Source of the DNA: Ceratorhiza oryzae-sativae
Taxonomy: Eukaryota; Basidiomycota; Agaricomycetes; Cantharellales; Ceratobasidiaceae
DNA length: 64,000 nt
Assembly: GCA_030998015.1 (NCBI GenBank)
Contig: JARWMV010000001.1
Span: 186,001-250,000, forward strand
Direction of reading: 5' to 3'
The position numbers were made by a program, and so were the translations under genes. Below are positions 18,690 to 42,260 of this stretch, in pieces (within the stretch, counting starts at the first letter, position 1; every line of letters starts with the position of its first letter). The notes beneath the pieces were generated by a model. The model did no database searches and was not told the origin of the DNA. It was given only the letters and a program-made list of their open reading frames with translations.

Positions 18690-20481
18690 CTAAGCTAAAT
18701 ATTGAAGAAAGGATATTGGTTTTGGAGATAATAGACAAGCATTGAACACATACTGAAATGCCAAATGCCAAAAAGAAACCTGGAATTGAAACTTTGAAGC
18801 TGAAGGCTGACAGTTGGGAATCCAGAATTGAAAACTGGAAACAAAGCTCAGTGCATAGCATTGCATTGCATTGAAGAGAAGAGACGTCAGGCACTTGAAG
18901 TTGGATGTGCGCTTAGCAAGATAAAGCCAATTGAACACAATCCAGGCATGCTTGAGGCAGGTAGATGTACAAAGTTCAAATTCAATTTGGGTCTTTCAGC
19001 AGCGCATGTATACATTAAGTTCAAATTCAAGTTCAAATTCAAGTTCAAATTCAAGTTCAAAAAAAAGATCCACCTGCATGCATTATAGATGGGCAGTGCG
19101 ACCACCTGCACACATACAAAAACAGGCAGTGTAGTTACCTGCACATGTACACAGATGGGCAGTGTGAGATCTATTCAAGGGAAAGGGGAAATATAGCAAT
19201 ATCAAGGAATCAGGAAACACAGAGGGGGTTGAGGGATCTGGAGTTAATCAGCTTGGCCTTTGCCCTTCAAGCAAGCAGTTCAGTAGCTGTGCTTGTTGTA
19301 TTCAGGGTTGCATGAAGGAGTGCAGGACTCAGCATCCCCCAGGGTGTCAGCAAGAGGATATCTGAGGAAGGGATTAGGTGATTGGGTGTGTTCAATCAGC
19401 AATCCATGAATGGGGGAGTACATGTGCTCTTCACCATCCTCAGGGAATGTTTGACTGCTCTGCAGTGCAAGCGCACAGAGGCTACCTGTGTGTGATGCCT
19501 TGGACAGGGTTTTGGGTGGTGGAGTGTCAGGACAGAATTCCAATTGGAACACCACATCTTCATGGTCCTTGTGCTTATCAATGAATGAAGTGCCACAGTA
19601 ATCACTGAACTGTGAATCAGCTAACAATGTGACTAGATAAATAGCACTAGACTCACAAGGCATAATCAGACCATCCCTTTTGCAACCTTGCTGTGCACCT
19701 CAGTGCAATGGCCTGCAGTCCCTTCAATCCAGCTAAGTGCAATTCATATTTATCAAGCATTTTTGCAGCACCAAGGTCGCTATTGACAAAGTACCCAGTT
19801 TGCCACTCTTCAATGCAAAATTGCATCTAGGACAGCCAAATAGATTGGTTCAAATGGAGACAAATGTATAACATAGACACTCACCATTGCTAGAATAAAA
19901 GCAACAACAGTGAGTGGCATGTCTTCAAAATAGTCCAGATATAGCATTCCAACAGAATTTGGCCCTTGGAAAAGCACAGCAGCTATGCAACATGTGATGT
20001 GTTTGTTTTCATAGTGGCCTTGACATGGCTGGTAGCTCTGTATTAATCATATAGGCATGATAGCTTGCTCAGGTAGTTGAAACATGCTTACTGTACAATG
20101 AAAAGTATTGGGGTAGATTTTGTTGAATCAATCCAAGTTGGCCCAGATATCATCTTGAGTGACAATGCAACCATCAAAGTGGTAAACAATTTCAACAATC
20201 AGTCAAATCTTCTCTTTTATCTTTCCCCATAGCATTGCAATATAGTTTACCATCTGCAAACAGACATTAAACTGCATGTATGTGCCAAAAATCAAAGTAC
20301 TCACTATCTCAAGCTCTTCCATTGTTGCTGCCTGGTACAGAAGATCTGGAAACAAGGTGTACCATGTTGCCTCATGGACACACACTGCCCATATCATGTA
20401 GATGCTGCAAGTTTGATAGGCACCTTCAATGAGTATATATGCAAATAAATGAATCTTCACATACATATGGACCTGGCACCA
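18690..20481 (-). pseudogene. Decayed gene of unknown family, distal part
   Basis: Minus-strand open segments at 20203-20466 (CSIYMIWAVCVHEATWYTLF...) and 19280-19663 look like former coding exons, but no complete gene can be drawn. The segment lies left of the outer retrotransposon. The matching decayed minus-strand gene on the right (38487-40958) would join it here if the transposon were removed, since the duplication CAATG brackets the insertion. CpG is almost absent. I do not recognise the family. Confidence 0.35.
19016..19062. repeat. 12-bp tandem repeat
   Basis: About four copies of AAGTTCAAATTC in a row, ending in an A7 run. Simple-sequence repeat inside the decayed region. Confidence 0.9.
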
Positions 20482-20486
20482 ATGTG

Positions 20487-21144
20487 TTATGACCTGTCAA
20501 ACGGACATAACAAAACAACTAAATATTTTTTACAGATTTATGGCATTTTTTCCTAAGCAGAACAAGCCATAAACAAGGTCACGTGACCTTGGCGCTTATG
20601 GTGGTTACCCTGAACTCGCTCCAGCATTTCTCTCCATTGTTACTTGGAGCAAGGAGCAAGTTGTCACATGATCTCAGTGCTTACAGAAGAATCATGTGAC
20701 CTCAGCGCTTACAGTGGTTACCCTGAACTCACTCCAGCATTTCTCTCCATTGTTACTTGGAGTGAGGAGCGAGTTGTCACGTAATCTCAGCGCTTATGGC
20801 AGGATCACATGACCTCAGCACCTACCCCTCAGACCTCACATGGCTCTATAAGATTCGGAGCTGCACAAACTTAAGACAAACAATTACCTAACCCATAGTA
20901 CTGTACATAACCTACACCTACTGCGGAGTGTGCTTAGATAATACATCTGCAGCCACTGCAGCCACAGGCATGTATAAGAGGGATAAAGCAAGACTGGACG
21001 CCTCAGCTTGCTTTATCTCATCAACCACCATAGACCATAGCAAACCCTGTAACTAGAACACTCAATACATACTGTATAGCACCAAACTGTCAATGCAGCC
21101 ACTACTTAAGTGCTTCACAAGGAAGCCTCCAGAGGGTCACAACA
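20487..21144 (+). repeat. 5' LTR of the outer gypsy element
   Basis: Begins TGTTATGACCTGTCAAACGG and ends GGTCACAACA. It contains two near-repeats of a segment with GTGGTTACCCTGAACTC and CTCCATTGTTACTTGGAG. A TATA box (TATAAG, 20973-20978) lies 32 bp before AGCTTGCTTTAT (21005-21016), the predicted transcript start. Confidence 0.95.
20973..21016 (+). promoter_or_regulatory. LTR core promoter and predicted transcript 5' end
   Basis: TATAAG at 20973-20978, then AGCTTGCTTTAT at 21005-21016, complementary to the priming site after the LTR. The sequence between also contains ATAAAGCAAG, so the RNA could form a hairpin with the same 3' half. All of this is conserved in the 3' LTR, and the AGCTTGCTTTAT block also in the old solo LTR near 16449. 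Confidence 0.6.
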
Positions 21145-21264: not shown

Positions 21265-22202
21265 ATGTCACAGAGACCACAAACTCAATCTCAAAGCAGA
21301 GTGGCAAATAGTAGGCCACAATCACCCAAACCCGTTGCTTCCCCAGAGGCTGAAGGTAACCCAGATGAGACCCTCCAAGGAATGCCAGGGGGGTTGCCAC
21401 AAAACCCACAACCAGTGGCTCAACCTAACCTCACTCGGGCCCCCATTCTGGGAGGGGAAATAGGGGGAATACCACTCTGCAGTCCTCAACCGCCAATTCA
21501 CCTGATAAATCCAGACCCAGAAGATATCTCAAATCCAGAGAGGGATGAGGTAGAAGATATGACCCAAACCATATACAAACAAGGCATGGCCTTGGCGGAA
21601 GAGGCAAGGACACAACCCCAGCCAGGTCCCAGAACCATAGCCACTGCCAACCCTATCCACACCATTGCCACTGCCATCAGGGTGGGGCTCAAGGAACTTA
21701 GAGACAATAACCATAGGGAACTAGAAAAGGCAATCACAGGTATAAATCAGTGTCAAATATCACTAACCCAACAAGAAGGAAATGTGGACTGGATGGTAAG
21801 GTCAATGGAAACATCCAACAAAAATGTCCTCTATGTGGCAAAAAACCAGGACGACCTAAAAGCAGAAATGGGGAACCTGATAAAAGAATTAAAGGACATC
21901 TCCATGGAAATAAACTGGGTACTGGGAATGCAAGAGCGAAAGCTTGAAAGCTTAGAGAAGAAAACTGAAAACACAGGGGAGATCCTGACCACACTAGAAC
22001 AATGGGTAACTGATCTAGGAAATGAGCTCCAGAAAACAACTGAAGCAGGAAGGCCAAGGGAAAGGACAGAAGAGACCAGGGGAAGAACTAGGGTGGTCAT
22101 AGGAAGCCCCTCACAATCCCCCTCAGCCTCCCCTGGTACAAACACCCTTTCTGGGAAGAACCTTCCAGGCTGAGTCCACAATAAGACCCTGAACAGAACC
22201 TC
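21265..22202 (+). pseudogene. Outer element gag, N-terminal part
   Basis: ATG at 21265 (MSQRPQTQSQSRVANSRPQ) opens a 302-codon frame to TGA at 22171-22173. The N-terminus is Pro/Gln-rich, and a helical, charged middle (about residues 100-270) could form a coiled coil. Downstream the gag frame is broken by the reverse solo LTR at 22203. Part of the loss of frame near 22171-22190 is older decay (two TGA). Confidence 0.75.
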
Positions 22203-26513: not shown

Positions 26514-27032
26514 TGTCATGGCCTAGACCATGAGCATGATTTTATTATGAATTTTCTATATTTTATAACTTCCTTTTTTACGATGTTTTGTACAAGTCCT
26601 GTTTATTCAGATATATGCAGTTTATTTACCTTCATGTCACATGACCTTGTTGTTGTTGACTCAATGTTTGGTGTTACCGGAATGTTCTGTAGTGACGTGG
26701 CACTGTTAGCTTCTTATTGGTCCTGGTATTTGATTTGTACTGCCTCAGCCATGAATATATAAGGGAGAGTCTGAGAGCCTTAAGCCTCAGAACTCAACCT
26801 CCTGTTCTACCATCCAGTCTCTCACTGGTGGTCGCCACGCCATTTGGTATTTGCCCAGTTGCCTTTGCAACAAGTGCCCCTACTCTATCCCCTGCATCTC
26901 ATTGCTCCAAAACCCTTGCTCCCTGCGTGTCCAACCTTAGACGTCGCAGTTTGACCTCTGGCCGTTATAGCCTATAGGTCCGCCATCGCCTCACAAGCGT
27001 TTGGCCTTAGTCATGTGGGCGTGACCTTTACA
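26514..27032 (+). repeat. 5' LTR of the inner gypsy element
   Basis: Begins TGTCATGGCCTAGACCATGA and ends GTGACCTTTACA. The TATA box TATATAA at 26756-26762 lies about 27 bp before AGAACTCAACCT (26789-26800), the predicted transcript start. Confidence 0.96.
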
Positions 27033-27034
27033 TT

Positions 27035-27046
27035 AGGTCGAGTTCT
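27035..27046 (+). promoter_or_regulatory. Self-priming-type primer binding site of the inner element
   Basis: AGGTCGAGTTCT begins two bases (TT) after the LTR. Its reverse complement differs at one position from AGAACTCAACCT at 26789-26800; the difference is a CG to CA change in the LTR, the same kind of decay seen through the block. No TGG-type tRNA site is present. Same geometry as in the outer element. Confidence 0.55.
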
Positions 27047-27422
27047 TACGAACTGCTTAAAGGAGGTTTTTACAGATTTCGGGAATTGAGAAATCGCTTA
27101 GATACTAGCCTACGGTGAAACGGAGAAAGGGAGAGTCACATAATAATCAAAAGTGACAGAGCTCTATCCAGTAACCGGTGTCTATAAGGTCTTCGTGGAT
27201 TATTGCCCCTTGGCTGGACCCTTGTCCCTCGCTTTGCACTTGAGTCAGCGAAGCTACTGCTTGTACAAAACCCACTCTACATCACACCCGTCTAAGGCTT
27301 GTTGATTAGCAGTAGGGAGTATTCAACGCTAGTAGTAGAGCACTCGCAGCAATTAAACACGTGTAAATCCCAGCCCCAAGAGCACCCCTACCTTTCTAGG
27401 TTCTTTTATTATAGCTTCCATT

Positions 27423-28757
27423 ATGTCCCAACCCGCCAATACTGCCGCTCCCAACACTCTGCCCGCCGCACCAAACTATGTCCAGGTCGACCCTAATGGC
27501 CTCATCCTTCTTGCCAACAAATCTGACGTTCCGCGATTCTATGCAGATATCAAACACGTTTTGATTGCAATCAATCATAATCTCCAGGAATTTATGACGG
27601 TCACGGGTGCGGATCTCGCCGCCTCAAACCAAAATCACCAAGCCATCGATCAAAGTGTCACAGCCCTGGAAACCAACATGGTCCGGGTTATGGCCACGAT
27701 TCCTACAGCTGGTGGTCGTTCTGGTGGTGCTTCTACTCGTGTGCCCAAACTCTCGTCCCCTGCCAAGTTTGATGGCTCAGACAAAAATAAGGCAGTTTCC
27801 TTCAGGGTTGCGGTTACCCACTACCTGCACACCTCCTACCCTAGCACTACAGTTGATGAGCAGGTTGCATTCATTATCTCGTGCCTCAACAGCAAGGCCC
27901 ATGACTGGTTAGAGCCATATCTCGAGCAGGACGTTGTCCAAAACACCCCGATTCCATGGTTGCATGATGTTAATCAGTTTTGGAATCAGTTCAACTCTCG
28001 CTGGAATGTCGCAAACAAGACCAAAAACTTCTGTGCCAAATTCAAGGCGCTCAAACAAACCAAATCGGTCCAAGAATATTACAAAGACTTCCAGATGTAC
28101 AGTCAGAACTTGGGTTACAACGACACGTCCTTGTGCGACTTCTTCTACGATGGGCTCACGGTCAAAATCAAGGAAATGCTTATGGCGCAAGACTTCGATC
28201 ATTCTGCCAATACTGTCACGCTACCTATTTTGGCGGACAAAGCACTTAAAATTGATCAGCGCCTAGAGCAGTTCCAGGCCCAGAATAAGTCGTCAGGCAC
28301 ATCCTCCAATACGAATACCTCTGGATCCAAGAGTAACACTTCGCCGTTGACGGCAGCTCCCACAGGCTCAGCCAGGGAAAAACTGTCCATCAGGGAAAAG
28401 GTGTATACAATTGTTGATGGAAAGGCTTGTAAAGGAACCATTTTGGCTATCTCCAAAAACAGTAAAGGCAAGAACGTACCAACAATCAAATGGAATGATG
28501 GGACATCTGAAGAATCCACTTTTAATGCAATCAAAAAAGATTCCCATCTGATTGTCGTTGCTCCTCTGGCTCCCCAACTTGCTAAAGGATCAGGTCCAGG
28601 ACCCATGGATCTTGACTCAGCGGGCAAAGGGAAAAGGCTGCTTATTTGCAATAACTGTGGAGGAAGAGGCCATATTGCAAGCGCCTGCCCATCCAAACCC
28701 TATTCAGGGCAAGGCGCCACTTTATCTGATGAGGAGTCGGAAAACAAGGACCTCTGA
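27423..28757 (+). CDS. Inner element Gag
   Basis: Complete 444-residue Gag: ATG at 27423 (MSQPANTAAPNTLPAAPNYV), TGA at 28755-28757. The capsid part carries a typical gypsy motif set (AHDWLEPYL, FWNQFNSRW, SVQEYYKDFQMYSQNLGY, CDFFYDGL). A Ser/Thr/Asn-rich linker near 28280-28370 follows, and a CCHC zinc knuckle (CNNCGGRGHIASAC) lies near 28648-28690. The frame is intact, unlike pol. Pol begins about 35 bases later in another frame. Confidence 0.92.
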   Translation: MSQPANTAAPNTLPAAPNYVQVDPNGLILLANKSDVPRFYADIKHVLIAINHNLQEFMTVTGADLAASNQNHQAIDQSVTALETNMVRVMATIPTAGGRSGGASTRVPKLSSPAKFDGSDKNKAVSFRVAVTHYLHTSYPSTTVDEQVAFIISCLNSKAHDWLEPYLEQDVVQNTPIPWLHDVNQFWNQFNSRWNVANKTKNFCAKFKALKQTKSVQEYYKDFQMYSQNLGYNDTSLCDFFYDGLTVKIKEMLMAQDFDHSANTVTLPILADKALKIDQRLEQFQAQNKSSGTSSNTNTSGSKSNTSPLTAAPTGSAREKLSIREKVYTIVDGKACKGTILAISKNSKGKNVPTIKWNDGTSEESTFNAIKKDSHLIVVAPLAPQLAKGSGPGPMDLDSAGKGKRLLICNNCGGRGHIASACPSKPYSGQGATLSDEESENKDL

Positions 28758-28792
28758 ACGCAGAAGGAGCAAGCGTCTCAGAGGAACCAAAC

Positions 28793-29401
28793 ATGGACCT
28801 GGAAATTTATGCTGTAGATAATGTGTCTCCTTTAAATATATTTTTTATCGCATCTCCAGTCCAGACCGCTCCTGATAGTAAAAGCTTGAATCATATGAAG
28901 AGACTGCATGGATGGGCCATGATAGATTCAGGAGCTTCATCTTGCTTCATCCACCCACGCCTCGTCTCAGAATACAAAATACCAACTCATAAAAAGAAAA
29001 ACCCAAAAAAATTAAAAGTTATTGATGGTCATGAAATTAGTTCTGGACTTGTCGATTCGGAATGTACATTTATATTAGAAATTGGTAGTCATAAAGAGCA
29101 GTTGGTTTGTAACGTAGCAGACATAGGTAGACATAGTTTAGTACTAGGAATGTCATGGCTCAAGTTACATAATCCTCATATTGACTGGCCTATAAAACGT
29201 GTTGATTTTAATTCTGCCTTTTGTATTAAAAATTGTGTTCCCACATCAAATGTAGTCTTTGGTAATATTGGTGGTCATTTGGATCCATTTGAATCTGACC
29301 TTGGAGGTGTCGAGGTATTCCAACCTCTTGAAGGCATCCAAAGGGACCCTGGAGGTGTTGTGGCTTCAAAACCACTTGAAGGCATCCCAGTCAAATACTG
29401 A
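28793..29401 (+). pseudogene. Inner element pol: aspartic protease
   Basis: Retropepsin with AMIDSGASSCFIHPRL near 28918-28965 and SLVLGMSWLKLHNPHIDW near 29138-29190. The segment ends with TGA at 29399-29401, after which the same frame continues into DYSDVF at the start of the RT region, so the stop most likely replaces an Arg codon. Confidence 0.87.
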
Positions 29402-30056
29402 GACTATTCGGATGTTTTTGCAGATGATGATGTGGTGACGGAATTACCTCCCCATCGTCCATATGATCTGGAGATAGTCCTCCAAGATCCCCAAAAACCA
29501 GTGAAAGGACCTGTATATCCCTTACGCCCTTTGGATGATGAAGAACTTCGCCGGATACTCAAAGAGCAGCTTGACAAAGGATTAATTAGACCATCCAAGT
29601 CACGTTATAGCTCCCTGGTGATCTTTGTACCCAAAAAGAATGGCAAAAGGAGAATGTGTGTCGACTATTGTGCGCTTAATGAAAATACAGTTAAAAACTT
29701 GTACCCCATTCCACTAATATCTACATTGGTGGAAAAATTACGGGGTGCACAAGTTTTCACTACCTTGGATCTGAAATGGGGTTATAATCTTGTTCAGATT
29801 AAGGAAGGCGATGAATGGAAAACCGCGTTCAAAACAAAGTACAGTCTGTTTGAATACCTGGTAATGCTGTTTGGACTATGCAATGCTCTGGCTGCATTCC
29901 AGGAACTTCATGAATGAAATCTTCTGAGATATTCTAGACGTCTACGTAATTGTATACCTAGACAACATCCTTATATTCTTGAAAAACTCAGAAGATCACA
30001 CCAAGCATGTCGCAGAAGTACTATGCTGATTAAGGCTTCATCAACTATACTGCAAC
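29402..30056 (+). pseudogene. Inner element pol: reverse transcriptase
   Basis: Blocks include LIRPSKSRYSSLVIFVPKKN, RMCVDYCALNENTVKNLYPI and TLDLKWGYNLVQIKEGDEW. Near 29905 the frame shifts by one base. In the new frame MNEIF, the active-site motif YLDN (normally Y-DD), and two TGA codons (29925-29927 and 30027-30029) are seen. The second catalytic Asp is thus also altered to Asn. Enzymatically dead copy. Confidence 0.87.
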
Positions 30057-30980
30057 TTGTCTAAATGCATGTTCAATGCTCCTGAAGTGGAATATCTAGG
30101 CGTCATTGCTAACAGCGAAGGAGTCCAAGCTAACCTGGCAAAAATCACGGAAGCAGTGAATTGGGCAACACCGAAAACCGTGAAAGGCATTCAGGAATTC
30201 CTAGGATTTGTGAACTACTACCACAAATTCATTGAGGACTTTGCTGGACGAGCATATCCGCTCTACCAATTACTCCACAAAGAAAATCCTTGGCGGTGGG
30301 GTCAAAACGAAGAAAGCTCATTTAACATTCTTAAAAGAGCCCTAGTAGAATCCCCCATCCTCATCCAACCTGACGTCACCAAGGAATTCACCCTGGAATG
30401 TGACGCTTCTGACTACGCCACTGGTGCAATCCTCAACCAGTTAGGCAAGGACGGAAAACTACATCCAGTGGCATTTTATTCCAAAACCCTATCACCAGCC
30501 AAACGTAACTATGATATACATGACAAAGAGTTGCTGGCAATGATAAGGGCGTTCAAAGAGTGGCGTCACCTGCTCGAAGGATCAGTAATCCCGATTAAAG
30601 TACTGTCGGATCATAAGAACTTAGAATTCTTCCAGACAAAAAGGGAACTGAATCGAAGACAAGCAAGGTGGATGGGATTCCTAGCCGATTATAATTATAG
30701 GATCAAATACCGCTCAGGGGCACAAAATGGCAAAGCAGACATCCTCTCCTGTCGAGAAGACCTCCGGGAACAGGCACTTAAAGAGGGGGGTGAAATCCCA
30801 CCACTTATCAGCCCCAAGCTTTTCATTTTGGCAATTCTGACTGACCACTCCCTCAATGACATGATAAGGGATGCGTTACCAGATGATAAGTCCGTATCCA
30901 AGATCCTCAAGTCCCTCGAGGAAAACATTCCAGTTAAAGGCTGGCGTCTTGAAAATGACTTGCTGTACTATCATGACTGA
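30057..30980 (+). pseudogene. Inner element pol: RT thumb and RNase H
   Basis: Starts with KCMFNAPEVEYLGVIAN and GIQEFLGFVNYYHKFIEDFA. RNase H blocks are FTLECDASDYATGAILNQ, HDKELLAMIRAFKEWRHLLE and VLSDHKNLEFFQTKRELNRR. TGA at 30978-30980 interrupts YYHD-stop-IYVP, where related elements have Arg. Confidence 0.88.
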
Positions 30981-32288
30981 ATCTATGTACCAAGCGAGTT
31001 AGAAATCAGACGTGCAGTAATAGAAAGCCGGCATGACAATCCTGCAGCAGGGCACCCAGGGCACTTCCGAACCTTAGATCTTGTATCGAGGGATTACTAT
31101 TGGTCGGGAATGAAAAAGTCCATTGTCAAATATGTCCAGGCATGCGACTTGTGCATCCGCAACAAGCATTCAAATCAGGCTCCTCCGGGTTTACTCCAAC
31201 CTATAGACTTACCCAATAAACCCTGGGAGGAAATCACTTACGACCTGATTGTTGGATTGCTGATGTCTGAAGGTTATGACGCAATACTCATGGTGGTTGA
31301 TCGTTTATCAAAGATGGTGCACTTTATACCAACTCACTCAAACACCACTGTGGTAGATGTCGCAAACCTGTTTGTAAACTTTGTCTGGAAACTACATGGA
31401 CTCCCCCGAAAAACAATCTCTGACCGCAGCCCCAACTTCAATGCCAAATTCCTACGCCAAGTATACAGTCGCCTCGGTATAGAGCCACATTATTCCACAG
31501 CCTACCAACCACAGGTAGACGGTCAAAGTGAAAGACTCAACCAGTTCATCGAAATCTATCTGTGTCATTATATAAACCATCAGCAGACGGACTGGGTTGC
31601 TGCGCTACCTCTTGGGGAATTCGCATATAACAATGGGAAACACGCTGGATCAAAACATACTCCGTTCTTTGCCTGCTATGGCTACAATCCAGACTTTATG
31701 GTCGGAAATACCAAAGGAAGCAGTGTCCCTCAAGCTGATGAATATGCCGATCACCTCAAAACTATCCATGAAGAGGCCAAGGCTGCACTCACGATTGCAA
31801 ATCGCACTTACTCAGAATACTACAACCGGAAGCATCGTGAGGCAACCAAGATCGAAGTAGGCTCAAAGGTTTTCTTAGACGGATCAAATATCAAAACCAT
31901 CCGACCATCCAAGAAGTTGGATAATAGGCGCTTCGGTCCCTACAAGGTCGTTGAACAAATCGGGAAATATACATTTAAATTGGATTTGCCCAAATCCATG
32001 AAAGTATACCTGGTTTTCCATACTGCCCTTCTGTATCCTAAACCAGTGGACAATTACCAAAGGGACCCTGTCCCAGTACCCACAGTAATAACCCCTGAAG
32101 GAGAGGAACAATATGAAGTGGAGCGTATCCTGGACTCATGCAAAGTCGGTTGGAGACTTGAATATTATGTCAGCTGGAAAGGCTACAGTGCAGAAGAAAA
32201 TAGTTGGGAACCTAAAGCCCATCTCAAGAATGCACTGGAAGCATTATCCAATTTCCACCGAGATCACCCTGACGCACCTGGGCCTTAA
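30981..32288 (+). pseudogene. Inner element pol: integrase and chromodomain
   Basis: The H2C2 zinc-binding region (SRHDNPAAGHPGHF..., CDLCIRNKH) lies at about 31026-31170. The DDE core follows: Asp in VVDRLSKMVHF, Asp in TISDRSPNFNAKF, Glu in VDGQSERLNQF. The C-terminal GPY-like module (NRRFGPYKVVEQIGKYTFKL) precedes a chromodomain near 32110-32260 (YEVERILDS, YYVSWKGYSAEENSWEP) that may direct insertion to marked chromatin. Stop TAA at 32286-32288. This last segment is open as it stands. Confidence 0.92.
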
Positions 32289-32299
32289 TGGGGGGGAAG
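32288..32299 (+). promoter_or_regulatory. Polypurine tract of the inner element
   Basis: ATGGGGGGGAAG directly before the 3' LTR, the usual plus-strand primer position. Confidence 0.8.
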
Positions 32300-32817
32300 T
32301 GTCATGGCCTAGACCATGAGCACGATTTTATTATGAATTTTCTATATTTTATAACTTCCTTTTTTACGATGTTTTGGACAAGTCCCGTTATTCAGATATA
32401 TGTGGTTTATTTACCTTCATGTCATGTGACCTTGTTGTTGTTGACTCAATGTTTGGTGTTACCGGAATGTTCTGTAGTGATGTGGCACTGTTAGCTTCTT
32501 ATTGGTCCTGGTATTTGATTTGTACTGCCTCAGCCATGAATATATAAGGGAGAGTCTGAGAGCCTTAAGCCTCAGAACTCAACCTCCTGTTCTACCATCC
32601 AGTCTCTCACTGGTGGTCGCCACGCCATTTGGTATTTGCCCAGTTGCCTTTGCAACAAGTGCCCCTACTCTATCCCCTGTGTCTCATCGCTCCAAAACCC
32701 TCGCTCCCTGCGCGTCCAACCTTAGACATCGCAGTTTGACCTCTGGCTGTTATAGCCTATAGGTCCGCCATCGCCTCACAAGCGTTTGGCCTTAGTCGTG
32801 TGGGTGTGACCTTTACA
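32300..32817 (+). repeat. 3' LTR of the inner gypsy element
   Basis: 518 bp, nearly identical to 26514-27032, followed by the duplication GACTT at 32818-32822. Confidence 0.96.
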
Positions 32818-32822
32818 GACTT

Positions 32823-34152
32823 GAGGTTGAGTCTCCTTGAGGAGTGCCATGACACCCCTGTGGCGGGTCATCAGGGACAAGCCCAAACACTAGAATTACT
32901 ATCAAGGGATTACTATTGGCCAGGAATGAAGGCCCAAGTAAACCGATATGTGGAATCTTGTGAAACATGTCAAAGAAGCAAAGGACACAAACAAGGCACC
33001 CCCCTGAAGTCCTTACCAATCCCATGGAAACCATGGGCAGATGTCGCATATGATTTCATCATCAAATTACCTGTCTCAAAGGGGTACAACAGTATCTTGA
33101 CAGTTGTAGATCGCTTCTCCTGGCAGGCCCATTTTGTACCATGTCTGGAGAGCACCAATGCAGAAGAACTGGCAGAAATATTCATAAGGGAGGTATGGAG
33201 ACATCACAGGACCCCAGAAACCACTGTCTCAGACCAAGGGCCAACCTTTAACAGCCAATTCCTAAAAGCCCTATACAAAGGAATTGGGACAAAGCCCAGA
33301 TTCTCCACCACCTTCCATCCAGAAACAGATGGTCTGTCGGAAAGGACAAATCAATGGGTAGAAGGGTTCTTAAGAACCTTCTGCAATTATAGACAAGATG
33401 ATTGGGTAAAATGGTTACCCATTGCTGAATTCTGCCATAACAACCACGCAAATGCTACAACAGGACAAACCCCATTTGAAACGGTATATGGAAAAAACCC
33501 AAGATGGGTTGTCCGAGAGGGAGAAGAACTGTCTGAGGCACCCACTGCAGACAACATGCGTAATCAAATGGAAAAGGTATGGGACAAGGCAAGAGCCTCA
33601 ATGGAATTACACCAACAAATGGAAAAGAAAGGGAGGGAATTCAAGGTAGGAGACAAGGTTTGGCTACTCCTAACAAACCTCTCGTCCAAGAGACCCTCCA
33701 AGAAACTGGACAACTGAAAAGGGGGGCCTTTTGAAATCACAGAAAAGATCTCATCCCATGCATATCGCCTGGACCTACCTAAAACCATACGTGTACACAA
33801 TGTATTCCATGTAAATCTCCTCTTGCCATTCACAGAAGATAAAGACTTCCAAAGAAGGCAGGCCAAACCACCACCAATCATAACGGAAGAAGGAGAGGAG
33901 GAATACAAGGTGGACCACATTGCAAATTATGAATGGCGGAATGGCAAGCTGTTTTACCAAATCAGATGGAAGGGCTACGACCCAATAGAAGACACAATGG
34001 AACGTGCCAACAAGTTTGCTGACATGAAAGAGGTTCTAAATGACTTGCAAAGGCGCTTACCAGATGCACCAATGCCAGTCAAGACGAGTCAACACTCAGG
34101 TGACTCGAAAGGCAGGCCAAAGAGAACCAAACAAGGATCTGGAAAGCTTTAA
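32823..34152 (+). pseudogene. Outer element pol: integrase and chromodomain
   Basis: Resumes the outer pol in the frame it had before the inner insertion (inserted length plus duplication is a multiple of three). The H2C2 region is HDTPVAGHQGQAQ and CETCQRSKG. The DDE core has Asp in TVVDRFSWQAHF, Asp in TVSDQGPTFNSQF and Glu in TDGLSERTNQW. TGA at 33715-33717 falls in the conserved KLDN-stop-KGGPFEI, where Arg is expected. The chromodomain follows near 33890-34060 (YKVDHIANYEW, YQIRWKGYDPIEDTMERA). Stop TAA at 34150-34152. Confidence 0.92.
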
Positions 34153-34242
34153 AAAGAGCCATCCAGGATACCCAAGAAAGGCCAGAGCCTGCTCTACCAC
34201 CTCACTTGCACCACAATACACCTGTGAAACCCCAAAAAACAT

Positions 34243-35062
34243 GCCTTTCGTCACTCACCCAGTCGCACATCCCAACCGTTACACACCACTTGCGGAAAAT
34301 CAGGTGGCCCCACTTTGGCAGCCACCCACCACTAGGCAGCCAGCACCCTACCCTGGCAGGGAAAATCATCCTAAACCAGGGATGTACTGCTCCAGTGTGG
34401 AAGATGCCCAGAGGTACGCTGAACGACTGTTGCCAGGGGCTAACCTAGTGTACATCCCAAAGAAGTTAAGGGATGAAAGGAACTGGATCAACGATGACAA
34501 GTACCTGGATCCCAGGTTAGGGGTCCTGACATGGCATGGAAGCTGGAAGCCAACGACGAGAAACGCCTTGCTAAGAACACCGATGTATGTTGTTGACAAT
34601 ATCGTGGGACCAACAGTCGATGTGGTGACCAAGGCAGCAAGACAACAGAGGAGGGCCACAGGCCAAATGGCAGATGGGGGGGACTGGGAGGTGGAGCGCT
34701 GGGCCAAGGCATTGCTGGAAGAGTGGAAGTTGACACCAGCCACACCATATGTGGGACTGCTTGAAGCAACTACCACTGATGAGATGTTTACTGCTATCAG
34801 GACGAAGCAGGCAAACATGAGTGACTTCCAAAATTGGGTGAAGGTGCACCCAAACAAAAACACCAATTATGACACTGATATGACAAGCCTTACATCAAGC
34901 CTAGAATCACTGGTTGTGGCTGAGGAAGAAGCCAAGCCAGAAATAAAGGAACCCACCCTGGACCCAGCTGCGGAGGAAGCCAAACAGGACTGCGACTGGT
35001 GGGAAAACAAGCTTGTCAAAGCTCTGGAGGAGGTGCCACTGTTGGAACCAACCCCCATATGA
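34243..35062 (+). CDS. Extra ORF of unknown function downstream of the chromodomain
   Basis: A frame open from 34040 to TGA at 35060-35062; the coding-like part starts about 34200, with Met at 34243 (MPFVTHPVAHPNRYTPLAEN), giving about 272 residues. The N-terminus is Pro-rich. The middle contains VYIPKKLRDERNWINDDKYL and MYVVDNIVGPTVDVV. The C-terminus is acidic with a likely helix and Trp residues (DCDWWENKLVKALEEVP). It is not part of standard gypsy pol and I recognise no family. It has no internal stop although pol upstream has several. It could be a capsid-like or accessory protein travelling with the Rep module, but that is speculation. Confidence 0.55.
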
Positions 35063-35133
35063 CCACTTTGCCTCCCACAGATTTTCTCCCGAATGTATAA
35101 GAGTTTTATATATATATTTTTTACACACCAGAC

Positions 35134-35690
35134 TTAATACATTTCCTTTTTACTCTCTATTTTACATTTGCCCTTGAGGGGCCAGGTATAGGGCTTCTTG
35201 CCTTTTTTATCCTTCTTATTGGTCTGAACAACTGACTGGGTAGTGGGCCGCAGCCAAGGAGCCTCCCCCCCTGGGAAGTCGGCCATGTAGTTCTGGAAAC
35301 ACCCAGAACCAGATGCTGCAAAGGGCGAAGCCTCATCAAACAAGGGAGCAGAGCCCTCCTCGAAGAATTCAGCAAGAGCAGCCTGGTGAGACCACTCCTC
35401 AAAGGACTTGTAGTCCTGATCAACAAGCGCCCAGACACGCTCAAGGGTGGCCTCATGGGCCCGACCATCAAGGAGGATGTGCTCTTCTACAGAACAAGTT
35501 AGCTATGTGAGAACGATGAAGAACGAGCACATGTACCTGGCACCCCACAGAAGAACCAATCCCCAACACCTCCATAGAAGTCTTCAAGGGAGGCGTCGCA
35601 CATGGCATCACAGTAGGTGCAGTACTCCCCCTCAGGGAGAGACCAGCAGGTGCAGTCAAGGGGATTGTAGTTAAGGGAAATAACATGCAT
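35134..35690 (-). CDS. Antisense spliced ORF inside the retrotransposon
   Basis: Two exons on the minus strand, 35690-35537 and 35486-35134, joined by a 49-bp GT-AG intron (35488-35536), give about 168 residues without any stop. Start MHVISLNYNPLDCTCWSLPE, then a Cys-rich stretch (EYCTYCDAMCDASLEDF), VWALVDQDYKSFEEWS, and a Lys-rich tail (NKKDKKGKKPYTWPLKGKCK) with TAA at 35134-35136. It is divergent from the Rep gene, and the 61-bp repeats lie between them. Antisense genes are rare in LTR elements, and a spliced one would be removed if on the genomic RNA strand, so the orientation is meaningful. Function unknown; too short for a typical viral capsid. Confidence 0.55.
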
Positions 35691-36214
35691 AGTAAAGATG
35701 GGATGAGGAAGGAAAACAACAAAAACCACAAACATTAAAAAATCACGGTGCAACACAATAACTTGCACAAACATCAAAACAAGGTCTGGTCAGGTGACAC
35801 CAACAGACACGTGACCATCTGCCAGAAAACAAACAACAAAGCATGGGAATCACATGACCTAGCCTAGTCACATGACCACCTGCCAGAAAACAAGCAACAA
35901 AGCACAGGAATCACATGACCTAGCCTAGTCACATGAATATACACTATCCCCTAACTACCAGAGGGGTTGGAGAGGGGGCACCAACCGAAGTGGAGGAGCG
36001 GAGGCCCCAAGCGTAGCGAGGAGAAAGGCCAACATGGGGGAACGCAGGAAGGGCACCCCTCAGAGATGCATCATAACCAGCACAAGCCTACATCAGGAAG
36101 CCACATGACCACAATAACCAGAGAGGGTATATCTAGGGGACACCTTTGGGGGTAAAGGGGGCTATCATCTCATGCCCTCCCCACAAGACACATCTACTTC
36201 TAAAAATACCAACA
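35691..36214. promoter_or_regulatory. Intergenic region between antisense ORF and Rep gene
   Basis: 524 bp between two divergent starts, so it should hold both promoters. It contains the 61-bp tandem repeat (35808-35936) and G-rich stretches near 35960-36050. I searched both strands by eye for the geminivirus/genomovirus origin nonamer TAATATTAC and close variants at a stem-loop and did not find one. Confidence 0.45.
35808..35936. repeat. 61-bp direct tandem repeat (2.1 copies), iteron-like
   Basis: Units start at 35808, 35869 and (partial) 35930, each with CACRTGACC-type starts followed by GCCAGAAAACAA and CACATGACCTAGCCTAGT. The copies differ at a few positions, mainly transitions. Direct repeats upstream of a Rep gene are the usual place for Rep-binding iterons; here this is only positional inference. 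Confidence 0.7.
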
Positions 36215-37501
36215 ATGCTAAGTGAAGATGGCTTGAACGTGGGAACACCCCAGCCAAACAAATCAAGCGCAGGGCAGAGGTTGGCATCACCATCGCTGGT
36301 GCCCTCGGAATCAAGCCAAGCCCCCTCACCTGCTTCTATGCAGCTTACACTGATGGATCACAGGTCTGAAGAGCTGACCGAAACTGCACGGGTCCCCTGA
36401 TTCCATGTCCAGACCAGGGCGGTGCTGCTGACCTGGTCAAAGCTATGCAATCAGCCCTCAAGTGGGCTCGCTGCCCAATACGAGGTGTTCTGCCACCACC
36501 AGCCCAATCACTGGGCAACCTTAGCCATGGTCGAACAGCACAACCCAGAGGAGCTGAACTATGACCCAACCCAGCCCCTGCATGTCCACACCCTCTCCAT
36601 CAGTCAGGAACGGAAGGGCAGGTGGAACACCCAGAATGCGGGGTTCTGGGACTTCGAGGGGCAACACCCCAACATACGGCCCAAAGACCTCAAGGACGGA
36701 CCAGGAGGCAACCCAGCAAGGGATGCCTTCAACTATCTCTGGAAGGACGTTGGAGCTAATGGCAAGGAGATAGAGGATTTGATGGTGGGGGACCTGACCT
36801 TGGAAAGGTTGGAGGAGATCTTGGTGAAGGGAAAGGGCAGAAAACAGTCAAGGATGGAGGCAGACTTGGAGGATGGGATGGAGATTGTTGCCTCAGCAAC
36901 AAAACAGGAGTACTACCAGGCGTTCAAGCGCCTCCGCCCCCTCCAGATGATGACGATGTGGAACTCAGTACGAGCATATGCCGAGTACACATACAAGGAA
37001 GACCAGGGTTGCATGCCTGCAATCCCTGTGGAGTTAGAGGTCCTGGAAGACCAGGAGCACATTGACTGAGCAGACAGATGGTTTGCCAAGGAGGTCGAGA
37101 AGAGGGGAAGAGGGGTGCGCCATCACATCCTGGTGATAGAAGGAGAAACTGGAACGGGGAAAACGGCATATGCACGATCCAAGGGCTGCCACAGCCAGAT
37201 GTGCAATGTGTGGAATATGGGCAACTTGTTGGAAGATGCCAACATTTGGATCCTGGACGACATGGTCCAGTCAAACGGGAAGTACTCGCTAAAGGCCCTG
37301 AGCCAGTACGAGGCGGACTTCACAGGCAGGTATGCGCACGTGAAATCAATGAAGGTATGGCCAACAGTTATTCTGGGAAATAGCCAGTCGGCAATCATGA
37401 AATGTTGGTCAGACATAGAGGGGGAAGAAGGGGACTTATGGGTATCAAGAAATGTGGAATGGGTGTATGCAGGAGGAAAACCATTCTTTGTATTCCCTTA
37501 G
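36215..37501 (+). pseudogene. CRESS-DNA-virus-type Rep (HUH endonuclease + SF3 helicase), two in-frame TGA
   Basis: Replication-initiator-like gene: Rep nicks and joins ssDNA at a rolling-circle origin and unwinds it. A single frame from ATG 36215 to TAG 37499-37501 (about 428 codons) is broken by TGA at 36398-36400 and 37067-37069. Endonuclease motif I-like VLLTWS is at 36422-36439 and motif II HVH at 36581-36589. A GRS-like block FWDFEGQHPNI lies at 36644-36676, and motif III YLWK at 36734-36745 carries the nicking Tyr and Lys. Helicase Walker A GETGTGKT is at 37142-37165, Walker B ILDD at 37250-37261, and motif C PTVILGN with its sensor Asn at 37361-37381. The motif order and the GRS-like block resemble geminivirus/genomovirus Rep more than bacterial plasmid Rep. 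An N-terminal extension of about 65 residues is unusual. All key residues are present; only the two stops break it. It is between the LTRs, not flanked by its own repeats. Confidence 0.85.
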
Positions 37502-37621
37502 AATAATTTACTGTACTGTACAACTTCTGCTATGCCCATCCAAACAGTTGGGGCATTCTGAGAAGAAGCAGACAAATCCTCACCCCTAAATAACCTCCAC
37601 AACAAAGAAAAGAAAAACAAT

Positions 37622-37742
37622 CTCATGTAATGGAGAGGTTAAGGGGTCTAGCCTGACTCAGCCTGACCTCATCAAACAATACTGAATCAGCTGAAAGGTC
37701 GTTGGTTCAAGTCCAGCACCCTTAACCTCCTTGGTGCATGAG
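37622..37742 (+). ncRNA. tRNA-like hairpin before the polypurine tract
   Basis: A 121-base segment whose ends pair (CTCATG with CATGAG; GGAGAGGTTAAGGG with CCCTTAACCTCC). Inside is a tRNA-like core of 86 nt (37640-37725). The acceptor-like stem is TAAGGG/CCCTTA. A T-arm with 5-bp stem and 7-nt loop (GTTGG TTCAAGT CCAGC, 37701-37717) matches a pol III B box. A-box-like TAGCCTGACTC lies near 37649, and a central stem is GACCT/AGGTC. No clear anticodon arm and a weak D arm, so it is not a normal tRNA. It could be a tRNA-derived RNA structure or pol III promoter, or a chance hairpin. Confidence 0.45.
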
Positions 37743-37796
37743 ATTCCTTTTGCATAAGGAACTAAACCATGTCTCAAGGTCCCCCAAGACATGTCC

Positions 37797-37810
37797 AAAG
37801 GGGGGGATAA
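37797..37810 (+). promoter_or_regulatory. Polypurine tract of the outer element
   Basis: AAAGGGGGGGATAA immediately before the 3' LTR, the plus-strand primer position. Its location 3' of the Rep gene shows that the Rep module is inside the retrotransposon's transcribed unit. Confidence 0.75.
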
Positions 37811-38481
37811 TGTTATGACCTGTCAAACGGACATAACAAAACAACCAAATATTTTTTACAGATTTATGGCATTTTTTCCTAAGCAGAACAAGCCATAAAC
37901 AAGGTCACGTGACCTTGGCACTTAGCTGGCACTTATGGTGGTTACCCTGAACTCACTCCAGCATTTCTCTCCATTGTTACTTGGAGCAAGGAGCAAGTTG
38001 TCATGTGACCTTGGTGCTTGCAGCCAGATCATGTGACCTCAGCGCTTACAGTGGTTACCCTGAACTCGCTCCAGCATTTCTCTCCATTGTTACTTGGAGT
38101 GAGGAGTGAGTTGTCACGTAATCTCAGTGCTTACAGCAGGATCACATGACCTCAGCACCTACCCCTCGGACCTCATGCGGCTCTATAAGATTTGGAGCTG
38201 CACAAACTTAAGACAAACAATTACCTAACCCATAGTACTGTACATAACCTACACCTACTGCAGAGTGTGCTTAGATAATACATCTGCAGCCACTGCAGCC
38301 ACAGGCATGTATAAGAGGGATAAAGCAAGACTGGATGCCTCAGCTTGCTTTATCTCGTCAACCACCATAGACCATAGCAAACCCTGTAACTAGAACACTC
38401 AATACATACTGTATAGCACCAAACTGTCAATGCAGCCACTACTTAAGTGCTTCACAAGGAAGCCTCCAGAGTGTCACAACA
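37811..38481 (+). repeat. 3' LTR of the outer gypsy element
   Basis: 671 bp. Same ends as the 5' LTR (TGTTATGACCTG ... GTGTCACAACA) and followed by the duplication CAATG at 38482-38486. It differs from the 5' LTR by transitions, often at CpG, and by small indels. Confidence 0.95.
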
Positions 38482-38486
38482 CAATG

Positions 38487-40958
38487 GCTGTGAATATTGC
38501 AAGCCAAAGGCTTTTTTTTACAGCCACCATTCTGATTTGTCAGTATATACAAAAGGTCAATGAGGTAGTGAACCAATACTTATCAGTTGCTTTCCTTCTT
38601 TCAGAGCCTTGGTGTGTGCATAGTCCTCATTGTCATCTTTGAGTAGGTTGTTGAGCCCCCTCACATCTTTCATGATGACTCAGGGGTTGTGTGACATTTG
38701 CCAGGTCACAGACTCAACAAAGCCTGGTGCGTTACTGTGGGTGCAGCACTCATTGAAAGTGGCCAAATCTGCTTCAGCAGCCACAATGGGATGCAGCAGG
38801 CATGTTGACTTTTGGGCTTGAGCTGGCTGGGGTTGGGATCAGAGCTGGGATCAAGATTGGGACTGGGATTGGGACTGGGGCTGGGGCTGGGACTGAAATC
38901 CCAATTTGAACAGAGCAGTACCACAACCCAATGGCTTCTCTTTTGTACAACCAAAAGTGGGGGCTGGCTGGCAGAATGAGGTTTTCAGCAGTGAGCCAGG
39001 GTTGGTGTGCTGGATAAGCTCACAAGCACACTCACAAACTTTAGCATGAACTGCTTTCATCATGGCTTGACTTGGTGCATCAGCCCTGAGATAAGGGTTG
39101 GCTCCTGTCAAGTCAAGAACTGAGTGCACAGAGCACAAAGCTCAAGTTGTGTCTGTGGGTGGAGTGTTGGGACAATCTGGAGCCAGGCCATCATTGCCAG
39201 AGGCAGCATGTGTTTGATCACCACCATATGTGCACTTGACTTGAGGAGCCAAGGTTCAGGTATCACAAGCATGCTTGACTGGCAAGGGGGGAGGTGTAGA
39301 CTGGGGAGACAGTGGAACATGGCATGATGATGGTGGTGGAGCTGATGTCCCCTCTGGTTCAATGCTCTTGTTCTCAGGGGGTGAGACTGCTCACTGCTTT
39401 GTGTTGTCATGCTTGTACTCATGCTCAATCACCTTTTGCTTCAACTGGGCATGGACCAGGCCTTGCACAGGGATGACATCCAAGAGGATGTTTGGGAGGG
39501 TGGGGAAATGTGACAGCTTGTCACCAAGAGACAGGGAACTCAGTTGTGGTTGTCCTTCAAGGGGAGCCTCAAGAATGGTAGCTGCAGTGTCCTTGCATTC
39601 ATGGATGGTGATTGGAGGATGTGAGAGTGTTTGGCAAAGTGGTGGAGCAGGTGGGGCTGGTGGGGGAGGATGGGGAGGCAAGTTGGACTGATTCACAGCC
39701 AGGTTGGGCTTGTCATTGGATTCAGGCTTGGTAGCAGTATTGTTTGGGTCGCTTGTCCAGATTTGCTTGACACTCAATCTGATGGGCATGTGCTCTGCTG
39801 TGTGTTTTCCCAGACTAGTTGCTATGTATTTACAATGCTGATAGTGATCATACCCATATAAAAACCCAAATAAAAGGCTTACCAATTGTGGCATTTGCCT
39901 GATTGGCCCACCCTCCACTTACATGCAAGGTTGGGGTTTCCAACATGACCATCTAATCCAAGTGGGTTAGTTTCAATGCTAAGCATATTATTTTGCCAAC
40001 TGACCTCAGTTTCTGGCTGTGGAGCTTGTATGGAGTGCATTTGAGCTTCTTGACCCATTTTGAGTGCTGTTTCAATATCTTCTTCTTGCCAGCAGTCAAA
40101 TTTTTGGCCAGGTTGATTCTCTGCAAATGCTGCAAGCATCTCATACCCCACCATTTCTTCAACAAACGTGTATTGGGATTCTGTCAAGCGTCATGTCAGT
40201 GAGTAGATTGAATGCAGGGGAAACAGTTTGTTGCTTACCTGATGGTTGTGCTTCAGCTTGGTGATTGTCCTGGCAGTCTTCACCTTTGTCCTTGCCATTG
40301 TCAGAAGAGCTGGGAGTTGGGGAGCGAGGAATGTTGCAGAGGTCTTGCTGCATGCAGCTGAGTTCCTCTGCTTCTTCCTCTGGGACATTGTGGACCCAGA
40401 CTTGGCCCTTGGGTTCAGGTGGCAGGCAGTGTTTCTTGATGTTGGAAGGACCACCTCCATCACCATTTTTCATCATGGGGTTGCACCTGTGAGCCTGAGC
40501 AGTGGACTTGGGGTTTTGAGGGCTGGATTCAGATGAACAACAGACACAGTTGGAGTTCCTGTAGCCTTGCCCACTGGTGTTGGTGAGCTTGGCTGCAGAC
40601 TTGGCAGCTTGCTGGGCCACTTGTTGGCCCTTGTCATACTTGCGTGTGGCCAAGCAAGATGGGGACACAGCACACTTGTCATCTGTTGAGTACAAATTTG
40701 TCAGTACTGGCTGTTGCATGAAACAATCAGGAACTCACTGTATTGGCTGATTTTTGAAGTGGGCTTGCAAGACTGAGGCCCCTTGACAATAAGCAAAGAT
40801 AACTCCTTGCTGGGCAGAGGGGTGTCAAGGGGTGCTTTGCCATGCCTAGTGCCCTTAGTAATACATACAACATTAGACTCTTAGCAAAGAGTTAACATAT
40901 CAACAAATGTACCTATTCAGTTGTCAGTTCAGGTGAAGCAGCAGGTAGTTCGACATCA
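38487..40958 (-). pseudogene. Decayed multi-exon gene of unknown family, proximal part
   Basis: On the minus strand coding-like segments appear in order: near 40770-40850, 40159-40719 (Ser/Pro-rich with a Cys-containing patch and an acidic EEEAEELSCMQQD stretch), 39879-40187 (EEMVGYEMLAAFAENQPGQK), 39391-39918 (poly-Pro tract PPHPPPPAPPAPP) and 38851-39138 (GANPYLRADAPSQAMMKAVH). Plausible GT-AG junctions separate some of them. At least one in-frame TGA occurs near 38670. A GGGACT/GGGCTG hexamer repeat at about 38830-38890 encodes a Ser-Pro run. It would continue left of the outer transposon at 20481. Family not recognised; CpG is nearly absent. Confidence 0.4.
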
Positions 40959-40959
40959 G

Positions 40960-42260
40960 TGTTATGGATCACTAACATTTTTCTATTTTAGTCTGCTTTG
41001 CCAACCTCAAGTGATGCCTCTGTAATTTTCTTGAAATTAAATGAATTTGTATGTGTCTGAATTTGTACTATTTGTGTTCCATTAAATAGTACAAATCTCC
41101 TCTTTCCAACGCATATTTTATCATGATTTTATCTTAAGAACTCAGAGATATATAGAGGTTGCAATATTTCCTCTTATCAGGAGATATTGATTACAACATT
41201 GTGCCGCTCATATCTCGGCAACCGCTTACGCTATCAAAGCGATCTTATGCTCTATCGATAGCTAATCTTTGGCGATATCTGCTGCCCAAAGATCGTCGCG
41301 ATCCACCAGATCCTTGTGCCGGAATGGCCTGAAGATCATTAGAATCTTACTGGACCATCAATCAAGATCTAATGACTCCAGCAAGTCAGGAGAGCCTTCC
41401 AAATTGATCCAGAAGCTTCTCTGACTCACTTTATAACTCACTGAGATGTAGCCTACATTCAATACATGTATATACCACGATAATACAATCTACAAGCCAA
41501 TAGCAGGTCTCAGATGCATCAATGCCTTCAATCCACACCCTGTCTTTACTCTCTTATCCTATACTGGGCTAGGGTGTACCCCAAGTATAGCAGTACCCTC
41601 TTTTGATGATTGCACTGGCATGCATGCATCTATTTGGCTCTGGAATGCCCTCCTCAGGGTATAAAAGGACCTCCTCTGAGGCCCTTCCAGACCACCCTCC
41701 TCTACTCAACCCAGACTGGTTATTGGTTTCTTTTCTCTTTCTATTTTTCTCTTGTCTGTGTGTGATTTCTTATATAACTAGTACTGAGGAATAAAGTACC
41801 ATATTAGTTATATATTGTCTGATTCATTGTATCTTATATACAGAGTTATATAAGGATACAATATTGCCTGATTGAGCATGACATTAAGTACCAGCTATTA
41901 GAGGAAATCTAAGTACCTGTAGCTGAGGAAGTTCACGCATTAGGCAGCCCACCATCTATCCTATAAGCTATCACTTAAGTCTAGTATTAAGATTAGTATC
42001 AGTTAGTCCAAGCAACTAGGGCTGAACTACATTTAAGATATTTAAGGGAACCTTACCATAGTAGTCTTGCTCTTTATACCTATAAATTAGTGAGTTTACA
42101 CTGTGAAAGATTAAGACTACCTTGAGTGTTACTTGATTGCATTGCAACTACTTTGAGCCTTCTTACTCTAGTCTAAGAAGTATTGAGTATGATTAGTGTA
42201 TACTAACATATCTACATTCTCTTAAGCTCTAGATATTCCAGTGTACCCTGACCTGTAACA
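40960..42260 (+). repeat. Full-length 1.3-kb LTR (forward copy of an inverted pair)
   Basis: Begins TGTTATGGATCACTAACATT and ends TACCCTGACCTGTAACA (1301 bp). A TATA box (GTATAAAAGG, near 41659-41668) lies upstream of a pyrimidine-rich stretch. No direct duplication: the left flank ends CATCAG, while the right is the inverted partner. Same family as 22203-23510. Confidence 0.88.

Follow-up and report, generated by a model that had tools for sequence, protein, structure and literature searches.

What is a gene for a rolling-circle replication protein (Rep), of the kind found in circular Rep-encoding single-stranded (CRESS) DNA viruses, doing inside a long terminal repeat (LTR) retrotransposon? 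The question is raised by a 64,000-nucleotide stretch of the genome of the basidiomycete Ceratorhiza oryzae-sativae (contig JARWMV010000001.1, positions 186,001 to 250,000; hereafter the window, numbered from its first letter), in which a sequence-only reading had recognised such a gene between the chromodomain and the polypurine tract (PPT) and 3' LTR of an outer gypsy element; the LTRs, the target-site duplication (TSD) and the order of the domains bore out this position. Almost certainly, a Ty3/gypsy chromovirus captured a CRESS-type Rep carrying a geminivirus Rep sequence (GRS) block, between an extra open reading frame (ORF) and the PPT, and has kept it as a selected gene. Direct support was obtained for the position of the gene, its copy number, its uninterrupted frames, the homology of both its domains, the purifying selection acting on it and a gene order that a divergent subfamily shares.

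Rep is near-fixed cargo of the outer chromovirus family

In the window, the Rep frame comprises 429 codons from an ATG at 36215 to a TAG at 37499-37501 and is interrupted by TGA codons at 36398-36400 and 37067-37069. Its pieces contain the motifs VLLTWS, HVH, FWDFEGQHPNI, YLWK, GETGTGKT, WILDDM and VILGNS, in agreement with the frame, the two stops and the motifs described beforehand. Searches of the genome (48.8 Mb, 253 contigs) with each Rep piece as a query of its own gave at least 150 matches for the first, far more than chance would produce (66-100% identity; 150 scored of 209 candidates), and at least 150 for the second (150 scored of 189 candidates). Whether any copy lacks the TGA codons had been left as a question, and uninterrupted copies do exist: the copy designated L061 encodes a Rep of 428 amino acids (aa) without a stop, and 51 of 95 scored two-domain spans were stop-free (query, homologue P0036; 231 candidates). 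Homologous Reps are also present in Ceratobasidium species, often with several entries, and in metagenomes.

The association of Rep with the element was then assessed from both sides. Of the 129 integrase copies scored (978 candidates), 115 were followed by a Rep match within 14 kb and on the same strand, a proportion that rose to 97 of 102 for the copies at least 84% identical to the window's integrase. An integrase without a Rep match does not equal absence of the gene, since one of the 14 misses (C238:1008761) proved by tblastn to have a damaged Rep. On the other side, the PPT-3' LTR junction GGGGNTAATGTTATG occurred 155 times in the genome (control, 0), and a Rep match lay upstream in 97 of the 100 junctions listed. 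The three listed junctions without a Rep within the limits were C13:35237, C32:52018 and C71:34134, the last of which has a Rep match 2.7 kb upstream, past the cut-off. The distance between the two features was nearly constant, a TAATRTTAT PPT-LTR junction being found 1380-1460 bases from the first Rep piece in 30 of 33 distinct Rep loci. These results indicated that the Rep cargo is near-fixed in the outer chromovirus family, as the sequence-only reading had proposed; the situation that would have spoken against that proposal, other copies lacking Rep and this copy showing insertion junctions of its own, is therefore not the one found.

Rep evolves under purifying selection

Because these elements decay by CpG transitions, substitutions were split by class, and the count in each class was scaled by how many changes of that kind are possible. 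The comparison took in L059, L061 and the 30 copies that best matched the first piece of the window, which left 32 distinct gap-free sequences for the HUH part and 27 for the SF3 part; values are medians over 500 random sets of disjoint pairs, with the 2.5-97.5% range of the sets in brackets. The ratio of non-synonymous to synonymous change (omega, dN/dS) outside CpG transitions was 0.21 (0.18-0.24) for the HUH part and 0.20 (0.17-0.24) for the SF3 part, and that of transversions 0.14 (0.11-0.21) and 0.28 (0.21-0.74), respectively. For CpG transitions, it was 0.82 (0.69-0.97) and 0.71 (0.53-0.96), and medians in the two other reading frames of Rep ranged from 1.05 to 7.8. Pairwise dN/dS was about 0.27 and 0.28 for the two Rep pieces, in a set that counts two copies twice (L060 = L048, L062 = L032). 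In five copies, the values were 0.24 for reverse transcriptase (RT)-RNase H, 0.11 for the integrase, 0.18 for the extra ORF (ORF284) and 0.18 and 0.10 for the Rep pieces, the counts behind the integrase and second-piece values being small (60 and 29 substitutions, respectively, over all pairs). CpG was depleted in the measured segments (observed/expected, 0.07-0.38). The comparison of dN/dS across copies, which the earlier reading had called for, thus disclosed purifying selection; the low non-CpG omega and the near-neutral CpG transitions make the transposing lineages look to be under purifying selection, with a later decay of inserted copies that is closer to neutral.

A separate observation concerns the HUH half of Rep (36401-37066), which is 90-91% identical between the window and four other copies, against 97% for the integrase and 95-96% for the SF3 half. 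This greater divergence includes synonymous sites and perhaps reflects exchange between sublineages.

Sequence support for a Rep of the Gemini_AL1 type

The positive control was a 368-aa protein encoded by phytoplasma plasmid pAYWB-III (Pfam Gemini_AL1, E 4.5e-21); together with 17 of the 27 proteins that a protein search with it listed, it makes up alignment A3, a set of 18 phytoplasma-plasmid Reps. Comparison of the fungal profile with A3 by hhalign produced two separate and collinear matches, one over SF3 (score 43.0) and one over HUH plus GRS (score 33.2, E 0.0013), and 50 column-shuffled controls scored 20.6 or less. Within the second match (probability 19%), the GRS block RFWDFEGNHPNI was aligned with RFFDIEGFHPRI. 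When 22 fungal and 18 plasmid-type Reps were aligned jointly, the nearly invariant columns included the two histidines, the F, D, H and P of the GRS, the tyrosine and lysine of motif III, the G, G, K and T of Walker A and two aspartates of Walker B. Among the distinct fungal copies, HxH and YLWK were kept in 32 of 32 and the GK of Walker A and the GN of motif C in 27 of 27, with the DD of Walker B retained in 19 of 27 and the last residue of motif I altered in 5 of 32. Of 36 homologues, 10 matched Pfam Gemini_AL1_M weakly and below cut-off, and the best E, 0.001, was that of protein P0002. Finally, a Foldseek search of BFVD, in which residues count towards the score along with shape, was run with a poor model (mean pLDDT, the predicted local distance difference test, 45) and returned 12 matches at E ≤ 0.001; of the 50 rows listed, out of 149 matches in total, 24 bore a name, and every one of these was a Rep or replication protein, geminivirus and genomovirus Reps among them, at low TM-scores (0.11-0.37).

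Several results weigh against this assignment. Single-sequence searches of Pfam, PHROGs and PDB with the window's Rep pieces returned nothing convincing, no curated Pfam Rep model was matched above cut-off, and Pfam Gemini_AL1 had no match in this genome, nor in the control genomes, which makes this negative a weak one. The hhalign probability against A3 was modest for SF3 also (68%), and a second profile comparison reported SF3 alone (52%, and 89% against the single plasmid protein), without the HUH part. In the joint alignment, the asparagine of motif C was not among the nearly invariant residues, and the second aspartate of Walker B was altered in 8 of 27 copies. AlphaFold models were poor for want of a deep alignment (mean pLDDT 36.5 and 45.4), and a PDB fold search with the better of them found nothing.

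Searches for closer relatives gave little. Scanning IMG/VR with the Rep alignment yielded 136 pattern matches and no relative, and by motif pattern alone four IMG/VR contigs of 7.7-37 kb matched; a tblastn search of plasmids with P0002 retrieved three records at E 9, none of them a Rep. No capsid gene was recognised, the extra ORF having no Pfam match, although no search was aimed at capsids.

Taken together, sequence evidence supports the Rep identity well, and structural evidence does not. Profile searches had been named beforehand as the test of the HUH and SF3 assignments: single-sequence searches gave neither convincingly, and profile-profile comparison supports both domains, SF3 better than HUH. 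The claim of a geminivirus- or genomovirus-like Rep with a GRS is likewise supported by the profile match, the joint alignment and the BFVD rows, which point to a Rep of the geminivirus, genomovirus or phytoplasma-plasmid type with a GRS-like block, without singling out one of these groups as the closest.

Divergent subfamily, sister families and time of capture

A divergent subfamily, represented by L066 and by L063, in which Rep is damaged, shares this gene order; relative to the window, its integrases show 68-70% identity and its Rep pieces as much as 74%. A block upstream of Rep (about 35891-36079) is conserved in L063 and L066, and a downstream block in L066. By contrast with these Rep-bearing copies, no Rep was seen over the 5-6 kb read in three sister families (L064, L067 and L068; integrase 60-62% identical). 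L068 is clean to its 3' end and consists there of integrase, chromodomain, a distant extra ORF (20% identity, E 2.8e-9), about 100 bp and the PPT-LTR, and the motif GGTCCCCyAAGAC directly before the PPT is common to L068 and the Rep-bearing family. As a caution against this reconstruction, L064 and L067 are interrupted, so that the empty site rests on a single sister element; L069, L070 and L077 were too interrupted or short for Rep presence to be called.

In the integrase tree, where frame-shifted copies have long branches, L064, L067 and L068 formed one group (support 0.999), and this group together with the nested gypsy element of the window parted from the Rep-bearing copies and L069 and L070 (support 0.885; the Rep state of the last two is unreadable). 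The tree is compatible with one capture, and a single acquisition of Rep between the extra ORF and the PPT is the simplest reading. The extra ORF (34040-35062), which is under purifying selection in the five copies (0.18), is weakly present in the Rep-less sister families and for this reason is apparently older than the Rep capture.

Candidate cis elements and a possible action on the element's own DNA

If Rep acts on the element, the PPT-LTR junction is a candidate target. This junction reads TAATGTTAT in most Rep-bearing copies examined and in the divergent L066, and TAATATTAT in one copy; that of the Rep-less L068 reads CAATGTCAT and that of the nested gypsy element AAGTGTCAT. The C variant of the full junction pattern occurs once in the genome. 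In the parts of the literature consulted, TAATRTTAT is reported as a genomovirus nonanucleotide (PMC6723397), and TAATGTTAT itself stands in a table of genomovirus nonanucleotides (PMC6186406). Against a nick site at the junction, TAATGTTAT falls outside the loop of a predicted hairpin (z -1.2 to -1.9), at whose base it lies, and several patterns were tried, the chance of one such match per 10-kb element being about 0.15 by our own estimate. LTR starts of the TAATRTTAT kind are, moreover, common in gypsy elements. A canonical CRESS origin, TAATATTAC in a stem-loop, was not found in 32800-38500 of the window, in L061 or in L066; there was one reverse-strand TARTATTAC match, at L066 5826 (reverse-complement position).

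Upstream of Rep, the motif CAYRTGACC occurs five times in intergenic region 1 and five times in the 3' LTR (both strands), compared with a mean of 0.07 in base-shuffled sequence of both, and is missing from the window's Rep and integrase. These sites could be Rep iterons, but promoter sites are likelier because one copy is present in each LTR of the nested gypsy element, and region 1 is possibly a promoter-like region for Rep. A CCCCT/AGGGG hairpin of region 1 was no better than shuffles (z -0.08) and was discarded. Between Rep and the PPT, we also noted a tRNA-like hairpin with extended arms, 73% conserved in L066; neither ARAGORN nor Rfam called a tRNA gene in region 2.

With these elements in mind, the following course of events may be envisaged. 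A Ty3/gypsy chromovirus would have acquired a Rep gene, in what was probably a single event, in the space separating its extra 3' ORF from the PPT; Rep would be expressed from the region directly upstream of it. On extrachromosomal LTR circles or unintegrated cDNA it would then nick one particular strand and act as a helicase, and the element would thereby be amplified as DNA in addition to being reverse transcribed. A candidate site for the nick would be TAATGTTAT at the PPT-LTR junction, which is a lead and not a result. We give the central step, action of Rep on the element's own DNA, slightly less than an even chance, and judge the identification of the junction as the specific nick site unlikely. 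More doubtful still is a hybrid cycle in which Rep nicks TAATGTTAT on circles with one LTR and a single element thereby links rolling-circle replication to reverse transcription. Capture, selection and action on element DNA, taken as a whole, form the best overall explanation, one that we regard as evenly balanced between right and wrong.

Alternative explanations

The main rival, possible but on balance doubtful, is that Rep acts on the host, pushing cells towards replication or weakening methylation-based silencing. Geminivirus Reps are reported to promote host replication and to weaken methylation-based silencing, and the decay of the copies, largely by CpG transitions, together with the CpG depletion described above, means that the host probably methylates the element; that no convincing origin was found fits this explanation too. 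However, HxH and the tyrosine motif are kept in every one of the 32 copies, which points to a nicking use for which a silencing suppressor has no obvious need.

A passenger acquired by chance, hitch-hiking without function at a site between the last ORF and the PPT where no gene is disrupted, is very improbable. Other LTR elements do carry extra ORFs, as described in the part of the bdelloid rotifer study drawn on here (PMC5408684), but the codon test largely rejected a neutral passenger, non-CpG omega being about 0.2 and the Rep values lying in the range of RT and integrase of the same five copies, and Rep was retained across subfamilies as far apart as that of L066.

We consider it hardly tenable that an independent rolling-circle element, still moving by itself, is nested in the retrotransposon. 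Among 150 scored Rep matches, the extra ORF ended within 3.5 kb upstream in 103 and at 3.5-15 kb in 6, and the remaining 41, without a scored extra ORF within 15 kb, might be taken for such independent copies. Some of these 41, however, lie near contig ends or in the divergent subfamily, the ORF search scored only 119 of 337 candidates, and the nearly constant distance from Rep to the LTR speaks for a fixed place in the element.

Equally hard to sustain is an unrelated P-loop protein with HUH-like motifs arisen by chance, which would account for the failure of the single-sequence searches, the low HUH probability and the want of a good structure model, but not for two collinear profile matches exceeding all 50 shuffled controls, the catalytic columns common with Gemini_AL1 Reps, the weak Gemini_AL1_M matches, or a listing of BFVD rows whose named members are all Rep or replication proteins.

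A one-off viral integration into the retrotransposon, the usual reading of an isolated endogenous Rep, is ruled out by the presence of Rep in 97/102 integrase copies and at 97 of the 100 listed junctions.

Architecture of the outer element

The features of the outer element are compiled in Table 1. Its LTRs begin with TGTTATGACC and finish with CACAACA, and the 5-bp TSD flanks both. The whole insertion spans 18 kb because a second gypsy element and at least one other repeat lie inside it, and its 3' portion reads integrase, chromodomain, extra ORF, Rep, PPT and 3' LTR.

Table 1 Coordinates of the outer chromovirus and its parts in the window
Feature	Position	Strand	Evidence or remark
Left TSD, CAATG	20480..20484	.	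sequence
5' LTR, outer chromovirus, TG..CA	20485..21144	+	94.3% identity to 3' LTR
gag-like ORF, start portion; cut by a repeat from 22201	21265..22200	+	sequence; gag by position only
Nested gypsy element inside outer element (LTRs 26514-27032 and 32300-32817)	26514..32817	+	
Integrase of outer element (H2C2, rve)	32818..33717	+	Pfam; 129 scored genomic copies
Chromodomain	33823..34152	+	Pfam Chromo E 3.8e-6
Extra ORF, 340 aa (284 aa in other copies)	34040..35062	+	119 scored copies; no Pfam match
Intergenic region 1, five CAYRTGACC; possible Rep promoter	35063..36214	+	
Rep frame, HUH endonuclease and SF3 helicase type	36215..37501	+	TGA-interrupted here, uninterrupted in other copies
tRNA-like hairpin, conserved; B-box-like GGTTC(A/G)AGTCC in main family	37612..37745	+	
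PPT and LTR start; contains TAATGTTAT	37797..37816	+	
3' LTR, outer chromovirus	37811..38481	+	
Right TSD, CAATG	38482..38486	.	sequence

In the outer integrase, Pfam H2C2 scored above its cut-off and rve beneath it. L061 is uncut between its LTRs, with 9.7 kb read and the 5' LTR starting outside the stretch, and shows the order LTR, gag-like ORF, aspartyl protease, RNase H, integrase, chromodomain region, extra ORF, Rep, region 2 and LTR. Its protease matched RVP_2 (E 4.8e-10), its pol is split over several ORFs, and its gag-like ORF of 308 aa had no Pfam match above cut-off; an RT domain was recognised in L059 (RVT_1, E 1.5e-33). The element thus has the LTRs, the TSD, the protease-RT-RNase H-integrase order and the chromodomain of a Ty3/gypsy chromovirus, protease and integrase being taken from L061, RT from L059 and the chromodomain from the window.

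Three further observations were made. A repeat family with direct and inverted copies 89-95% alike (22201-23510, 40949-43348 and 17319-17877) is the one that interrupts the gag-like ORF. A near-perfect 230-bp inverted repeat (9010-9239 and 10411-10640, 1.2 kb apart) is possibly a young DNA transposon or foldback element. In L065 (G000:C48:105300-107645), the LTR follows almost directly after the integrase, without chromodomain, extra ORF or Rep match, and this copy is probably a deletion derivative.

Comparison with known systems and significance

The fungal protein resembles the Gemini_AL1-type Reps of geminiviruses, genomoviruses and phytoplasma plasmids in its HUH motifs, its GRS-like FxDxEGxHPxI and its SF3 Walker A and B, all in the same order, and differs from them in sitting inside an LTR retrotransposon, in its LTWS and YLWK variants and in that no canonical origin was found. 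Likewise, its carrier shares with Ty3/gypsy chromoviruses the LTRs, protease, RT-RNase H, integrase, chromodomain, PPT and 5-bp TSD, but has two additional genes after the chromodomain, one of which is Rep.

Three known kinds of element come close, judging from the parts of the respective papers that we rely on. Terminons, giant Penelope-like retroelements found in bdelloid rotifers, include accessory Rep ORFs (PMC6431247, PMC5718144), which are described as discordant and indicative of transient association (PMC5718144). They too join a retroelement with a rolling-circle Rep, but have neither LTRs nor an integrase and are marked by a hammerhead motif and by attachment to telomeres, whereas the fungal Rep is near-fixed, at one site and selected, in an element that has LTRs and an integrase and no Rfam match in 20000-39000. 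The geminivirus-like terminal inverted repeat (TIR) transposon of Tuber melanosporum (Liu et al. 2011, PMC3198968), whose Rep is interrupted in the copy described, is likewise a multicopy fungal mobile element with a geminivirus-type Rep, but it is a DNA transposon with TIRs and transposase ORFs in place of the LTRs, TSD and integrase found here. Bdelloid LTR retrotransposons have captured enzyme genes as ORF3s (DEDDy, GDSL and others; PMC5408684), which are of other types than Rep; the terms Rep protein, CRESS, HUH and rolling-circle are absent from the main text of that paper as far as it was available. Captured ORFs in LTR elements, Rep in Penelope-like Terminons and Rep in a Tuber TIR transposon are, then, already known. 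No LTR retrotransposon with a CRESS-type Rep was found in searches of open-licence PMC text, within which a Rep of this type, near-fixed and selected in a Ty3/gypsy element, is apparently new.

Rep proteins and reverse transcriptases are two separate replication strategies, and this lineage keeps both under selection. The finding shows how single-stranded DNA replicons and retroelements can fuse, offers a route for the high-copy spread of Rep genes through fungal genomes, and makes the direct replication of extrachromosomal LTR-element circles a directly testable question; a demonstrated DNA replication step would lift the case beyond the known kinds.
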